Positions 39,624 through 47,484 of a stretch of 64,000 bases of DNA are shown piece by piece. The stretch lies in assembly GCA_026390695.1 (NCBI GenBank), contig JAPLFL010000118.1:124001-188000 (forward strand), read 5' to 3'. Made by a program: the position numbers and the translations under genes. Source of the stretch: Candidatus Kapaibacterium sp. GTDB lineage: Bacteria; Bacteroidota; Ignavibacteria; Kapaibacteriales; UBA2268. A model generated the notes under the pieces. The model searched no databases, had not been told where the DNA came from, and saw nothing but the letters and a program-made list of their open reading frames with translations. Each line of letters starts with the position of its first letter. Positions within the stretch are counted from its first letter, which is position 1.

Positions 39624-42380
39624 TTATCGTAACTTAATAAATTTTTTAATTATTCGCCCGCTTTTGTTTATTATCGTAATAAAATATAATCCATCTGAAA
39701 ACCCACTACAGTCCACAATCATTTGATTAGAATAGATAGCACTCTTATAAATCTGATTGCCGAAAATATCATTTATCTCCAGTCTTCCTTCATAATCAGG
39801 TAAAATGAAATTTATTGACAGTTCATCTTGATTTATTAGCGGAGAAGGATAAATAGTTACATTTCCATCAGCATAAAGTTCCTGTTCCGGCAGGGAGAGC
39901 AGTGTTTTGGAATAGAACTTATCGCCTTCAATCACAAATCTTCCGTTTCTTGGTATAGTCGTAATATTTCCACGATTGTCGGTTGCCTGAAGATAATATT
40001 CCAGATATTTAATGGGAGCATGGAAGTCGATTGTATAGTTTTTCAGAAGGTCTGCTAATGCAGGAATAATCTCGGAAACATAATATGCAGAAGGATCAAC
40101 GCGATAGAAAACTTTAGTCTCCACAAGTGACCAGCCTTTATCCCAGTTATCACCTTTGACTTTAACATCAAAATTGTATTTATCAGTCAGGGGAACTTTT
40201 TTTGGTTCATGATAAATGTATGGAGCATGATTCCATGCATATTCCGAAAAAGGTTCCATTTTACTGTAATTGTTCGTCCAAGTAGTATAGATCATACCTT
40301 TAAATCCCGGAACATTTTTAGTCCACTGTTTCCATTGTCGAATTTGGTTTTCATCGGCATCATAATAAACAGCGGCTATCTGGCGGAACCCTTTTGAAGA
40401 GAAGAATTTAAGGCTACTGTCAACTAATGTAGGCTGACCGTTCCAGTTTCCGATCCCTATTTTATTTGAGATAAGATTTGCCGAGCCGGTCAGGTCGCCG
40501 TTTACGAGATAATAATCTTTTTTTACAGCATTATGAAATTCATCGAACATATCCGACCATACCCAGATATCTGCATTCGGTTTATATTTATAAATAATTT
40601 CAGTGCATTTATTAACATTATAAGCCAGTATCTGAGCAGGAGTCATCTTTAGGTTTTGATCGCCGAAATCCCAATTCATGGTGCGGAGTTCGTCATGGCT
40701 CATAAAAAAAGTATTTGTTTGTAATAAACTATCAATTAAACCAAGCTGTTTATCTACAATATCGTATAGCTTTGGTTCGGACATAGAAGCAGCAACCTGT
40801 CCATCATAGATAATTACTGCATGATAATATGATATATTCAGAGAATCGCCATTTGCAATTTGTCCACCTTTGATGATCTTAAAAGTTGGTGGATTATGCC
40901 ATGAGGTATAACAGCCATTCCATGGGATATTTCCCATTAAAGGATCTTGGAAACTGCTGTAATCTTTTCCTTCTATTGGAGAAAAGCCGTTACGGAGCGG
41001 ATTATCAACTGTGAGGGGTGTACCGTCACGTCGGAGAGTATTTACAAAAGGAACTTCTGTCAAAGTGAAATTATCCCACCAAATTTTACCGCTTCGTCCG
41101 CCCCAGATACCGATATAAACATTGATTGTGTCAGAATTAAGGGAGTTGAAAGTAATATCAACTTCCTGCCATGCACCTTTTGTATCCCAAGGAACGTTCA
41201 CATTGCAGTAATTAAGACTTGGATTATGGTTGCCGATAATTGTTACTCTCGGCCCCTCATCGGCTTGAAGAGATTCAGTCCTAACGTTTGCATGAACATG
41301 ATAAAGTTTAAAAGGTGAGCAAATAGTCCTTGAGACAACTCTGTAATTATTATTTGTTGTATATTTTGCCGGATCGAGGTCAAAGCGCACACTGGTAGCG
41401 CCGCTAAAAAATATTTGATTATCTGCAAAAGATTTTGATCCGGGATCATCAATATATGCGAAATTCGGAAAATTATTACCGTTATGATTTTCAAAATCAC
41501 CATTCTTTATTGTTGCAGCCGATGAAGGTATCAGGCAGGCTGTATCTGCTTTTATAATAAATCTCTGATTTTTAACAGGCAGTCCGGTAGCGTAATTCGG
41601 ATCATTGAAAAGTATATCGTTTGAGTATCCGAATGACATGCAAGCCATTGCTATTTTCAAATAGTTTTGCTTTGAAAATAGCCCGAATGAAGATACCGAG
41701 TCTGAATAATATTTTGGCATAAAACTTGAAAAACTGAATTTTGAATCAGTAAGTAAAACGCCGTTTAATTTGAATTTTGACGCTATTGATGCCTCTGCTC
41801 TGGTATTAGCGCTATTTGCAGCCGGAAGAAAATTAGTTGGCCAATAGTACCAGCGCTCCGGGTATTCGGGAACATCAATAATTCTACAATAAACAATCGA
41901 TACATCTGCTTTCGTCCCGGAAATGAGTTGGGATGCGGTCATTAAACCATTGTGCAAGCCAGTTGCATCGCATCCTGCAATAATCATGAAACTATTTGAT
42001 ACATCAAGAATATATCCTTCGGCACCGGGGTAATCTTTGGTGAAATTAATTGAATAACTGCCACTAAGGCTGATAATCGAGTCCACACCCAATTCGGGTA
42101 AACTTAGAATAATATTATTTGTTAGATCCGAATAATTTTTGAAAATTGAAATTTTTAAAGTATCAAATCCCTTCGTTCTTAAAATTGAGTTTAGCTCGTA
42201 AGCTTGCTTGAATGCCGGCGTTTGAGGCGAGAGAATAATTTTTGCATTAGTAATGCTGAGCTTGCCAGCGGGTGTTTTTTCAAAGGATTGACATGGCTTT
42301 GGGACTATGTTCTCAACTTGTTGAGCGAAAAGATTGTTGAAGCCGAGTAAACAAGTTAAAATTACTATTAAACATTTCAT
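39624..42380 (-). CDS. T9SS-sorted GH20-like glycoside hydrolase
   Basis: A 918-residue secreted enzyme-like protein. Signal peptide (1-19), then a GH20 non-catalytic alpha/beta domain (~25-155; IVPKP, GYILDVSN, GLHNGLMTASQLI). The catalytic-barrel region is interrupted by a ~170-residue carbohydrate-binding-like insert (~290-450). The candidate Asp-Glu pair is in FFMSHDELRTM near residue 562, in place of the usual GGDE. Family members cleave N-acetylhexosamines; the substrate here is unknown. A T9SS domain starts at YPSPLINQDE and ends KKFIKLR, so it acts at the cell surface. GH20 assignment rests on fold motifs. Confidence 0.78.
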   Translation of the reverse strand: MKCLIVILTCLLGFNNLFAQQVENIVPKPCQSFEKTPAGKLSITNAKIILSPQTPAFKQAYELNSILRTKGFDTLKISIFKNYSDLTNNIILSLPELGVDSIISLSGSYSINFTKDYPGAEGYILDVSNSFMIIAGCDATGLHNGLMTASQLISGTKADVSIVYCRIIDVPEYPERWYYWPTNFLPAANSANTRAEASIASKFKLNGVLLTDSKFSFSSFMPKYYSDSVSSFGLFSKQNYLKIAMACMSFGYSNDILFNDPNYATGLPVKNQRFIIKADTACLIPSSAATIKNGDFENHNGNNFPNFAYIDDPGSKSFADNQIFFSGATSVRFDLDPAKYTTNNNYRVVSRTICSPFKLYHVHANVRTESLQADEGPRVTIIGNHNPSLNYCNVNVPWDTKGAWQEVDITFNSLNSDTINVYIGIWGGRSGKIWWDNFTLTEVPFVNTLRRDGTPLTVDNPLRNGFSPIEGKDYSSFQDPLMGNIPWNGCYTSWHNPPTFKIIKGGQIANGDSLNISYYHAVIIYDGQVAASMSEPKLYDIVDKQLGLIDSLLQTNTFFMSHDELRTMNWDFGDQNLKMTPAQILAYNVNKCTEIIYKYKPNADIWVWSDMFDEFHNAVKKDYYLVNGDLTGSANLISNKIGIGNWNGQPTLVDSSLKFFSSKGFRQIAAVYYDADENQIRQWKQWTKNVPGFKGMIYTTWTNNYSKMEPFSEYAWNHAPYIYHEPKKVPLTDKYNFDVKVKGDNWDKGWSLVETKVFYRVDPSAYYVSEIIPALADLLKNYTIDFHAPIKYLEYYLQATDNRGNITTIPRNGRFVIEGDKFYSKTLLSLPEQELYADGNVTIYPSPLINQDELSINFILPDYEGRLEINDIFGNQIYKSAIYSNQMIVDCSGFSDGLYFITIINKSGRIIKKFIKLR

Positions 42381-43143: not shown

Positions 43144-43732
43144 TGGTTAATGGTTATTGGTTAATGGTTAATTTTTACTTGATATTAGGGTTGTGAGGGT
43201 TGGTGGCTATATGTTTATTAATAAAAATAAACCTCGCCGCAACCTTCTACTTTTCTACCCTGCAACATTCTATAATCGTCATTGGGTTGCTTCGATAAAT
43301 GCTTCGCATTTAAAGTAGTGGAAATAAACATCCCAATATTATCTCTGTGTTTCACACAATCTCTCGGGAGTTGGTACAAGTGTCAAAAAAAAATAATTTA
43401 TTTGGATATTATCAAAATATTGTTTATATTTTTGTAGTTTATTTTAGCATTTGGGATAATTGTGAAGATTTGAGGTTTGGCATGATTTTTGCAAAACCCA
43501 AAACCCGAAACAAGAGATTAGAAATTGTTCTTTAGTTTTTATTACAATTATTATGCCAAAAATATTAAATATTAATCATTAACAATTGACAATTGACCAT
43601 TGAAATTATGAACTCTATGAACTAAAATAAAAAAAAACTGCTCCCTATACTCTTCTCGACCTGAAAGTTAGATTTGTAAAAAGGAGCAGAATAACACACA
43701 ATATGTTACATTAATTTAAGGAATTTTTCCTA
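43144..43732. other. Gene-poor stretch with short dispersed repeats
   Basis: 589 bases with no convincing gene. It begins with repeats of TTAATGG/TTATTGG (43143-43172) and ends with related inverse-sense repeats (TTAACAATTGACAATTGACC near 43578-43600). A 62-codon frame at 43347 has no ribosome site or family likeness. An inverted repeat CTGCTCC (43638-43644) / GGAGCAG (43683-43689) sits in the leader of the next gene, with a run of nine A before the left arm, so on the minus strand it would look like a terminator. Confidence 0.6.
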
Positions 43733-45148
43733 ATGAAACAAGTATTATTTTACTCGGCTCTACTGGCGCTGCTCTGCGTTGCGGGCAGCACGACAAATTT
43801 ATTCTCACAATCTTGTACAAATTTTCCTGTTAATTTCACTTAAATTGGAATTAACACAACAGCTCCACAAAAGGAACTTCATATTATTGGAATTAGTGAT
43901 CCTTGCGATCCTACTCTCCGTTTGGAATGGAGTGGTGCTTCAGGTGGCTGTGGCAGTAATATTTTTGGAAATTTAGCATTAACTTGATTAAACAGTCATT
44001 GGCAATATACTATCCTATTTCGTTCTGCTTCAAATTCCATCTTCTGCAACCCAAAACCCGATAGCTCCTTTGATATGACATTAAGCGCTACAAATGGAGT
44101 TCGTGATTTAATTCTTACTTCAAAGAGTCAGTGTGGCTTGCTGAGGTTTGCAACTTCACCACCTCCTAATAATGGCGGCTACTGGTCTCCAGGTGGGGAC
44201 AGAGAATGTATGAGAATTACTCCCCTTGGTTATGTTGGTATAGGATTTAACAATCCAAGTAATATTCTCGAAACACGTTACAATAACCCGAACTCAATTT
44301 TTGATGTACAATTACATCCTTGGTACAATTCAACAAGGATTGCTTATGCTCTGACCGGGCAGAGAATGGGATCGACAGGAACCGGATTTCCGACAATTAG
44401 AATTTACAATACTGCAGATGATGAAACATGTTTTAATTCAATTAGCAATAACTTTTGTGCTGCACCATTTTGGTTGGAATCTAAAAGGGTAAATTATTCT
44501 ACTGCGCTTCAAATCAAGAGTACGACAAATAATTATGCGCCGGGAGATGAGGATGATAATTCAAATGAGAGTATAATGAAGTCGCTATTTACAGTAACAA
44601 GAGCTGGAAACGTCGGTATTGGAAGTTTCCCTTTAATTGATCCTCAAACTATGCTTCATGTTAAAAACGGTTTTGTTATGTTTGATGGCATTCTTATACC
44701 TCATAATACAACAACAATACTTCCTTATAGCCTAAATTGTAATGCGTGTGCAAGAATAATTATGCTAGAAAATAAAATAGATACCCTAACAAGACGACTT
44801 GATTCACTAATTAATAGTTTTAGCAAAATTGAAAGAGATAAAGGGGATAAAAATACTTTGATGTCATATCAAAATTTCGAGAATATTATATTAGACCAAA
44901 ACAATCCTAATCCTTTTTCTGAATCTACTCAAATCAATTTTTACATTCCTAACTGCTTCAAAGGAAAGGCAAAGTTGATTTTTAGTGATGAATATGGTGG
45001 ACAGAAAATAAAAAATTGGGATATTATTTTTGGCAAGCCAAGTCAAATCACAATATCTGCTAAAGATTTAACTACAGGTATATATATTTACGGAATTGAA
45101 ATTGATGGAGTTTTAATAAAATCAAAGAAGATGATGATTATTAAATAA
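43733..45148 (+). pseudogene. T9SS-sorted surface protein broken by two in-frame stops (module copy A)
   Basis: Read from ATG 43733 the frame gives a good signal peptide (MKQVLFYSALLALLCVAGST), then TAA at 43841-43843 in CTNFPVNFT*IGINTTAP and TGA at 43985-43987 in NLALT*LNSHW. Both stops are bridged by continuous, sensible protein with no frameshift. The rest holds VGIG-type tail-fibre-like repeats (YVGIGFNNPSNILE, NVGIGSFPLIDPQTMLHV), a short coiled coil (~LENKIDTLTRRLDSLI) and a T9SS domain (LDQNNPNPFSES to SKKMMIIK). Translation could still restart near 44075, but without a signal peptide. Best read as a recent pseudogene. A lipoprotein gene follows after 96 bases. Confidence 0.8.
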
Positions 45149-45160
45149 CTTGATAGTTAG

Positions 45161-45182
45161 CTTCTAAAACCAGCATTAGAAG
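45161..45182 (+). terminator. Weak hairpin after module copy A surface protein
   Basis: CTTCTAA (45161-45167) pairs with TTAGAAG (45176-45182) 13 bases after the stop, with no T-run, so termination is doubtful. Confidence 0.3.
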
Positions 45183-45244
45183 TTCATGTAACTATTTAAT
45201 ATAAATTTTGTTATTATTATGTTAATTATATATAAGGAGAAAAA

Positions 45245-45979
45245 ATGAAAATTTTATACTGTTTATTAACAATATCTTTAATTATTTTTATTTCATGCAA
45301 GGATAATGTGATTGGATATAAAAAAAGTGGCAATATAACTGGTCAAATTGAGTTTAATCTAAATGAGGTAAACATTTCTATCAACAGTTTGAACTTGAAC
45401 ACCAAAACAGATAGTTCAGGTATGTTTAATTTTGTAGAGATTAAAAAAGGAATTTATGATATTTTTTTCACAAAAGATGGTTATGATACATCCGCAATTT
45501 TCGGGTTTAATTATTTAGGAGATAATATCTTTATCAATAGTGAAAGTTTTTTTGATAATGGGATCACAGCTCCAACAAAAACTAATTTTGCTGGGTGTAG
45601 GCTATTACATCTATATCCAAAAAATTTAAATTCACTTAACTTAGATAATATCCAAAAGTTAAATAATGATTCGTTATTAATCAGAGTAATTAATAATAAC
45701 CTTACAACGGAATGTTACCTGTTCTTTTTTTCAAAAAATAAACAATTAATAAAAACTGATTCAAATTATTTTGGGATCGCTCAAAATTCTTTAATCAATA
45801 AAAATACAATCCCCATAAATAAAAGCTTACTTTATCATAAAGGTTTTAATTCTGGAGATTCAATTTACTTTTTTGTTTGTGACTGATTCCCTAAATATAT
45901 TAAAAATATAGAAACTAATATGTATCTATGGCAAAGTTTAGGTTAAGAATCAAATATTGTCGGATTTATTGTCCCGTAA
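45245..45979 (+). pseudogene. Carboxypeptidase-regulatory-like lipoprotein, truncated by stops (copy A)
   Basis: An intact 213-codon frame (45245-45886) starts after AAGGAG and has a lipobox (IFISC, Cys at residue 18) and a peptidase-regulatory-like beta-sandwich (SSGMFNFVEIKKGIYDIFFTKDGY, in two segments). The frame stops at TGA 45884-45886. Reading on past it and a second stop (TAA 45944-45946) gives SNIVGFIVP then TAA at 45977, which matches the end SNIFGFIVP of the paralogue at 46223. So the gene once had ~31 more residues. The shortened product may still be made. Family role unknown; probably an outer-membrane lipoprotein paired with the surface protein upstream. Confidence 0.75.
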
Positions 45980-45995
45980 CCAAGGAACCTCCATC

Positions 45996-46136
45996 ATGGA
46001 AACTAAGGCTGTGGCACTTGATAAACCAACATCTTTGATCATTTCTTCGAATAATTACAATACCGGAGTTTATCTTTATGGAATCAGGATAAATGGAAAA
46101 ATTGTTAAATCGAAGAAAATGATGGTAGTGAAATAA
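45996..46136 (+). pseudogene. Orphan T9SS sorting-domain remnant (copy B of surface protein)
   Basis: Forty-six codons ending in TAA encode ALDKPTSLIISSNNYNTG, VYLYGIRINGKIV and SKKMMVVK, closely matching the end of the surface protein at 45148 (GKPSQITISAKDLTTG, IYIYGIEIDGVLI, SKKMMIIK). Everything upstream of this domain is missing. It starts 17 bases after the end of lipoprotein copy A, implying a deletion that removed the body of a second surface-protein gene. Confidence 0.8.
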
Positions 46137-46146
46137 ATTAAATATA

Positions 46147-46172
46147 AGCCGTGAGAGCTAACTTTCACGGCT
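46147..46172 (+). terminator. Hairpin after copy B sorting-domain remnant
   Basis: AGCCGTGAGAG (46147-46157) pairs with CTTTCACGGCT (46162-46172) with one wobble and a CTAA loop. No T-run follows, so it may be a residual terminator or attenuator. Confidence 0.4.
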
Positions 46173-46222
46173 AATTATAACTTGATTAATGTTTCGTTTA
46201 TTTAATAAATATAGGAGTCCAC

Positions 46223-46873
46223 ATGAAAAACTTATTTATGAAAGTCAAGTGAATAAGCCAAACTTATCTCACTGAAGCTAACGGGAAATTCAACATACAG
46301 AATCTCCCTATTGGCACTTATGATATATATTTTTCAAAAACAGGGTACGATTCTACCTCTATTTTCGGATTATATTTCCTTGGCGAAAATGTGTTTATGA
46401 CAAATAATAATTATTATTCCTTGAATTTTATTTCAAATTCTATTTTTGATTGTTCAGTTCTTACCTTGAGTCCTATAAATAATGATAATATTTCAATAAA
46501 ATCATCATTCAAACTAATTGAAACTATGGATCGAGAACGTGATAGTGTTTATATCGGATTTAAATTTGAAACTGATGCTAAACAATTCAGTTACACTGCC
46601 TTTATCAATAAATCGAAAAATATGAACAAAAATAATTCCGTTGAAACACAATATTGTTTTCCAAAAGATTATGATACTCGTAATACAGGACAGGGGAAAA
46701 TAAGTTATGTAAGCAGAAAATTGTTAACAGAACTTGGATATAAATCCGGTGACAGTGCTTATGTATTTATTGGTACATTTACTTGTAATATTTCAGATAC
46801 AACTTCAAATAAAAAAGTTTGGACAGGAATGAAAGATAAAATTTCAAATATTTTCGGATTTATCGTACCTTAA
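46223..46873 (+). pseudogene. Lipoprotein copy B, lacking signal peptide and with an in-frame stop
   Basis: AGGAG is followed by ATG 46223, MKNLFMKVK and a TGA at 46250-46252, then the frame runs on as ISQTYLTEANGKFNI and onward. Compared with copy A, about 40 residues including the lipobox are deleted. The remaining part (GTYDIYFSKTGYDSTSIFGL against GIYDIFFTKDGYDTSAIFGF) and the C-terminal half are well kept to SNIFGFIVP. A frame could start at 46391 but would give a headless protein. Hence pseudogene; it preserves the C-terminus that copy A has lost. Confidence 0.78.
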
Positions 46874-47048: not shown

Positions 47049-47111
47049 ACTACGACAATAATGGAAATTCTTAATTCACCAAATGAAATATTTGGGTTTA
47101 ATTAAATTGTA

Positions 47112-47420
47112 GCTGTCTCAAAAGCTTCATTTCTATCATTCCTACGAATGACACTGTGTGAAAACACGAAATATTCACGTATCTGTCATTCCCGCGCATG
47201 CGGGAATCCCCTTCCATGGCGCAATTGGGGATTCCTGCATGCGCAGGAATGACAGAAATTGAAGTTTTCACACAGTCTCGAATGCAGGAATCCCCTAAAG
47301 TGGCACTGGATGGAGATTCCTGCATACGCAGGAATGACATTCTATTGGAATTTTCGAGTTTTCACACACTCTCATACTCAGGAATGACATTTTTGTTAAA
47401 TATGTGGTTTTTGAGACAGC
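47112..47420. mobile_element. MITE-like element with 12-bp terminal inverted repeats
   Basis: GCTGTCTCAAAA (47112-47123) and its exact reverse complement TTTTGAGACAGC (47409-47420) bound a 309-base unit. This end sequence resembles termini of insertion sequences. Inside is no transposase but nested palindromes: a 29-bp near-perfect inverted repeat (47183-47211 with 47227-47255), further GCAGGAATCC/GGATTCCTGC pairs to ~47338, and GTGTGAAAAC / GTTTTCACAC arms repeated three times. Short frames over it are by-products of the palindromes. Confidence 0.75.
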
Positions 47421-47484
47421 CTATAGGGGAGATTTAAGTAAGTTCATTAGTGGTATGTAATATTTCAATTGGATCAAATCTTAC

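Follow-up and report, generated by a model that had tools for sequence, protein, structure and literature searches.

A probably recombining family of surface-fibre loci with an exchangeable partner slot in Candidatus Kapaibacterium sp.

Rhs and CDI loci carry orphan C-terminal modules, and the S/U genes of phage Mu form invertible tail-fibre cassettes. In T9SS type B systems with a PorP/SprF-like shuttle (SprB-SprF; PG1035-PorP-PorE), a secreted T9SS substrate is encoded beside a dedicated neighbour gene. In F. johnsoniae, 9 of the 12 type B genes adjoin an SprF-like gene (PMC12618676). PorE is described as an outer-membrane-associated lipoprotein that has a CarboxypepD_reg-like fold and contributes to the anchoring of a T9SS substrate (PMC9143113). 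Other points of comparison are MYRF and those phage tailspikes and fibres that have an endosialidase chaperone (Peptidase_S74/ICA). Cleavage in the S74/ICA family requires a trimer. The Ser-Lys dyad of this family lies at S911/K916 in the phage enzyme and at S587/K592 in MYRF (PMC8326128).

In this study, we analysed 64,000 nucleotides of DNA from Candidatus Kapaibacterium sp. (the window), in which two units of a surface gene and a lipoprotein gene follow each other on the forward strand. The gene order, coordinates and spacing given for both units in an earlier note were borne out, with the start of remnant B moved from 45996 to about 45984. Surface (fibre) gene A (43733-45148) is a pseudogene with a signal-peptide-like start (MKQVLFYSALLALLCVAGS) and in-frame stops at 43841 (TAA) and 43985 (TGA); it is preceded by a 5' leader (43387-43732) that is common to other fibre loci. 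Its T9SS-like C-terminal sorting domain (44885-45148) ends in KSKKMMIIK, is 60% identical to the tail on contig C4, and scores 14.3 bits against PF18962 (E 0.051), which is below the cut-off of 27. Lipoprotein A (45245-45979) follows after a spacer of 96 nt and is a pseudogene with a lipobox-like FISC, a CarboxypepD_reg-like N-domain, and two stops close to its end (TGA at 45884 and TAA at 45944). As read from the junction, its end is directly abutted by remnant B (about 45984-46136), which is the second half of a sorting domain and shares 42 of 51 residues with the tail on contig C3. After 86 nt comes lipoprotein B (46223-46873), also a pseudogene, which has a TGA at 46250 and lacks 120 nt after 46241 compared to its closest copy. 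The two units together carry five internal stops, one shortened sorting domain and this 120-nt deletion. Their likeness to each other is beyond chance, as lipoprotein A finds copy B with E 4e-11 and protein A finds the C-terminal domain (CTD) of B with E 1e-7. Further 5' in the window (39624-42380) lies a secreted protein whose sorting domain is over the cut-off and which also matches GH20 domain 2 weakly, slightly under the threshold for that family. Palindromic repeats of the GGAATCCCC...GGAATGACA type were seen 3' of the array at 47098-47440, and related copies (76-84%) lie 5' of the C3 fibre gene. Rfam matches at 47177-47261 were to microRNA families, far below gathering scores, and were rejected as a chance hairpin.

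The same genome contains other copies. The search with lipoprotein A found five homologous places outside the window in addition to copy B, and the search with protein A found matching tails directly 5' of lipoproteins on C4, C114 (twice) and C3. In this genome, a lipoprotein of the family lies behind each of the six CTD-subfamily matches, which supports the view that the pairing is no accident. The C4 pair is fully open (1221-aa fibre, 99 nt, 252-aa lipoprotein). The earlier statement that all copies are decaying therefore describes the window copies and does not extend to the genome. The C3 unit combines an open lipoprotein with a fibre that has a single stop. C114 carries two ORFs that encode a sorting domain but no fibre body; an open lipoprotein of 264 aa lies behind the first and a broken one behind the second. 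Since the same 108 nt, with a full-length match nowhere else in the genome, end C4 and begin C114, the two contigs are probably one array consisting of an open pair and two orphan units of tail and lipoprotein. On C41, an open fibre with a different C-terminal type is followed by two other genes, and the C41 lipoprotein, shortened by a stop, sits 3' of a sorting-tail stub. The orphans of this genome are two on C114, one in the window and two fibre-end fragments in an array on C41 that is described below.

Peptidase_S74 (PF13884, cut-off 22) was found in the C4 fibre (26.5 bits) and the C3 fibre (52.9 bits), in a position 5' of the T9SS-like tail, so that cleavage would separate the fibre from its sorting signal. 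There was no Peptidase_S74 match in the 357-aa open part of window protein A, in the C41 fibre or in the fibre of the C41 array. The motif SDxxxK was present in 9 of 9 genes chosen by tail pattern (tails such as ASKKM fall outside the pattern), with the nearest motif 212-306 residues before the end, and its spacing of five residues matches the S74/ICA Ser-Lys dyad. PF13884 over the cut-off (C4, C3) and SDxxxK are shared with phage tailspikes or fibres and MYRF, whereas the proteins here are bacterial secreted proteins in which the chaperone is followed by a sorting tail of T9SS-like type. PHROG tail-fibre matches were weak for the C3 fibre and strong for G064:C44. The T9SS translocon SprA is encoded in the genome (TIGR04189, 911.6 bits, cut-off 200). 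In the members scanned, the tail stayed below the Pfam and NCBIfam cut-offs that mark type A, and the C3 tail reached 17 bits against TIGR04183 (cut-off 23). No type B tail match was found at E 0.01 among the fibres scanned, and no PorP/SprF-like barrel was seen as a partner. The loci are similar to type B systems with a PorP/SprF-like shuttle in that a secreted substrate adjoins its own neighbour gene, but the tail is type A-like and sub-threshold.

The lipoproteins have a lipobox, judged by eye and by a simple rule, and 16 of 16 lipoprotein partners matched CarboxypepD_reg at E 0.1. This fold is shared with PorE; however, the partner here is either a lipoprotein of small size and two parts or a secreted protein of another kind, and the TPR and OmpA domains found in PorE were not matched. 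When the lipoprotein profile was compared to solved structures, the N-domain alone matched, and the best match, a cellulosomal scaffoldin chain (E 2.5e-14), was taken as a shared fold and not as a shared function. From the cysteine on, the copies read have C-K-D-N, C-K-E-Q, C-K-Q-N, C-K-N-S and C-N-N-S. The lipoprotein export signal K-(D/E)2 or Q-A-(D/E)2, which was defined in another genus (PMC5080379), is absent behind the cysteine in these copies. DUF3823_C was rejected as a name for the C-domain, as it matched 1 of 16 members with E 0.055. The predicted structure of lipoprotein A, with the stops read through and an alignment to copy B only, had a mean pLDDT of 31.9 and was unusable.

The pairing was then examined in related genomes. 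A search with the 87-residue tail (E 1e-6) gave matches in 40 of 100 genomes, at 84 places, six of which belong to the own genome. At 50 bits or more there were 20 places outside the own genome, or 21 with one half tail of 35 bits (G076:C86:437) that was counted with the subfamily by hand, and 20 were evaluable. Controls were the 32 of 55 lower-scoring places with surroundings retrieved, of which 31 were evaluable. A signal-peptide-like gene start lay within 100 nt downstream at 17 of 20 subfamily places (16 of 19 without the half tail) compared to 5 of 31 controls (Fisher p 1.4e-6), where the 50-bit line was set after the list was known and the related genomes are not independent. On this comparison, pairing by chance was rejected. 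Two G029 places (47-50 bits) belong to neither group; at both, a lipoprotein gene lies downstream but has no match to the family.

The 17 downstream partners consisted of 7 lipoproteins and 10 other secreted proteins. The seven lipoproteins have the signal and the CarboxypepD_reg-like domain in common with the window family (hhalign E 4.6e-14), in an alignment limited to the first 129 columns, which is the N-terminal half. Homologues with the same N-terminal domain do therefore adjoin such CTDs elsewhere, so that the refuting observation named in the earlier note did not occur. Fibre-less orphan tails were found in G014, G004, G083 and G076 (with partner) and in G062 (without partner). At three fibre loci of G014, the similarity is 84-91% between leaders and about 75-86% between bodies. 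Many S74 proteins of the order are built differently, and have either no sorting tail and then another secreted gene, or a different tail and no close partner. Chains of 2-4 S74 genes without a sorting tail were observed at L109, L112, L115 and L120, with internal repeats 80-93% alike between neighbours.

The relations between loci are mosaic and block-wise, which speaks against the simple tandem duplication proposed earlier. A block common to C41 (46106-46401) covers the end of the CTD tail, the spacer, the lipoprotein start and the N-domain. Copy B is 100% identical to C41 over 136 nt (46106-46241), from the last tail codons through the whole spacer to the lipoprotein start; past the 120-nt deletion, identity is 95.7% over 163 nt (46239-46401) and then falls to background. 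The block edges are abrupt, and 5' of the 136 nt the window and C41 are unrelated. The non-coding leader of the window is identical to the C41 fibre leader at 305 of 344 aligned positions (88.7%), compared to 67.9% in the coding part behind it. Five fibre leaders were found in the genome (68-100%), and the four other strong copies are 68-89% alike. Window protein A is itself mosaic, with residues 1-297 like the C41 fibre (61%) and residues 249-471 like the C4 fibre end (43%). Between A and B, identical residues number 20/50 in the lipoprotein N-domain, 38/141 in the C-domain and 21/51 in the CTD, and the N-domain of lipoprotein B is identical to that of C41 at 48 of 50 residues. Judged by sequence, units A and B are no closer to each other than to other family members.

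Similar relations were found among the remaining copies. On C114, a 58-nt stretch 3' of each lipoprotein is 89.7% identical, and the lipoproteins themselves share 19/71 and 22/139 residues. The tail of the second C114 unit has a C4-like front and a C3-like rear, as read off the alignment. The first C114 unit and C3 share 66/88 tail residues and 18/71 residues of the lipoprotein N-domain; the second unit and C3 share 47/88 and 49/72. Tail and lipoprotein similarities are thus not parallel across units. The left ends of the orphans also vary, and comprise a half tail, a whole tail, or a coiled coil and tail.

A further fibre leader opens a tandem array on C41 (L169), which begins at the contig end. 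The order is a 477-aa fibre, a lipoprotein, a secreted sorting-domain protein, a fragment of the fibre end, a lipoprotein, a secreted protein, a fragment, a lipoprotein, a truncated protein, a lipoprotein and a protein. The four lipoproteins have about 38 N-terminal residues in common and little else. This type has four matches in the genome, all on C41, and was not found in the genome outside the array. Each linker (about 660 nt) comprises the sorting domain of one payload, the fibre-end fragment and the signal end of the next lipoprotein. The two linkers compared are 90-100% identical per 60-nt segment, save for one indel of about 119 columns, and the flanking payloads are at background level and unalignable on both sides. 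The sorting domains of the partner proteins exceed the cut-off (34.6 and 33.2 bits). The two long secreted payloads at L169 2672-7886 had no Pfam match; we presume that they have trypsin/lysyl-endopeptidase-like folds, the second seemingly without the active-site His and Ser. A single type of secreted protein is represented by one half at L169 101-952, the start of C41, and by the other at G000:C20:71521-72945 (residues 8-269 and 280-701 of the query), and these contigs perhaps adjoin in one array. On contig C95 (L170 1385-4234), a fibre leader is followed by only a fibre-end remnant, a YCF48-like propeller with a sorting tail, and a 466-aa protein that we take to resemble C13/caspase-like peptidases.

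Several explanations were weighed against these observations. In a dedicated pair of anchor and cargo, the lipoprotein would be the specific outer-membrane holder of the fibre, as PorP/SprF or PorE is for type B substrates. The tight spacing and the recurrence of the pairing in three families of the order are consistent with such a pair, as is the anchoring role described for PorE, and S74 self-cleavage would leave a fibre in need of a holder. Nevertheless, we consider this explanation doubtful: in relatives, 10 of the 17 partners are secreted proteins other than lipoproteins, the paired lipoproteins of relatives align over the N-terminal half only, and three full-length homologues (G014, G011, G064) stand without a fibre gene in front. 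The CTD and lipoprotein similarities that do not run in parallel and the lack of K-(D/E)2 or Q-A-(D/E)2 in the copies read also argue against it. Ordinary tandem duplication with neutral decay, in which shared blocks are recent copies and orphans are deletion scars, appears rather unlikely as well. In its favour, both window copies are dead, the copy B junction has a short stretch in common (TAACCA) that may reflect a deletion, and random deletion would also give the varying orphan ends. However, the leader and spacer, which are non-coding, are more alike than the adjoining coding parts, and sharp-edged blocks of 90-100% identity lie between unalignable payloads; the reverse would be expected from plain duplication under purifying selection.

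The main caveat is the short-read assembly of this metagenome genome, as contigs can misjoin at repeats of at least 100 nt. The exact 108-nt end that the 6.9-kb C114 has in common with C4, the start of the C41 array at a contig end, and the 136-nt identity, which is not much longer than that overlap, would all fit an assembly artefact. We regard an artefact as improbable, since the contigs of the window and of C41 measure 210 kb and 143 kb, genes are interrupted by single stops, and G014 and other genera independently show both orphans of tail and partner and leaders of high identity. Copies of the 3' segment of a main gene, together with the next gene, lie behind that gene, which also resembles the Rhs/CDI design; such orphan modules could suggest a locus of the polymorphic toxin-immunity type, in which the lipoprotein would be the immunity protein. 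The repeated segment here is a sorting tail and not a toxin, Pfam/NCBIfam scans found no toxin family or domain in the members examined, the variable fibre part precedes the sorting tail, and propellers as well as further secreted proteins occur among the partners, which makes this explanation very improbable. Phage Mu S/U is similar in that the fibre 3' segment and the downstream partner are kept as a unit, but the units here are in direct orientation.

We therefore favour, as the probable explanation, a recombining multi-locus surface-fibre family with an exchangeable partner slot, of which the window copies would be dead members. The blocks, their sharp edges, the orphans and their recurrence in relatives were observed directly; we infer that recombination made the blocks and that diversification of displayed parts is the outcome. 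Our confidence in the functional claim for the family is moderate. A live unit would open with a leader and a signal peptide, both conserved, followed by a fibre body that varies, Peptidase_S74 in some loci, and a sorting tail of T9SS-like type. Behind a short spacer would come a lipoprotein whose CarboxypepD_reg-like N-domain is constant and whose C-domain varies. Recombination would homogenise the blocks carrying export signals (leader and signal peptide; tail, spacer and lipoprotein start) or exchange them between loci, while the fibre bodies and the outer half of each partner would diverge. Cassettes of tail and partner would also be copied 3' of live units as orphans. The fibre would be exported through the T9SS and is predicted to trimerise outside, where S74 would cut off itself and the sorting tail and free the fibre. 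The co-encoded surface partner may then act with the freed fibre, possibly as its holder.

A tentative extension is a plug-in form of display. The constant linkers would hold the export signals, namely the T9SS sorting tail, the fibre-end copy and the lipoprotein signal of the next gene, and recombination between linkers would swap payloads without loss of export. In this way, proteins displayed by the T9SS or anchored by lipid could change in a manner resembling antigenic variation, and self-cleaving trimeric fibres would head the locus. In the open-licence literature, among the matches listed, no paper was found that connects the T9SS with Peptidase_S74 or the endosialidase chaperone. If this extension is true, a T9SS-bearing bacterium would vary its surface through the exchange of cargo between constant linkers that carry export signals. 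A self-cleaving chaperone of phage fibres would also work ahead of a T9SS sorting signal, which would raise the question of what holds the fibre after the sorting tail is removed.
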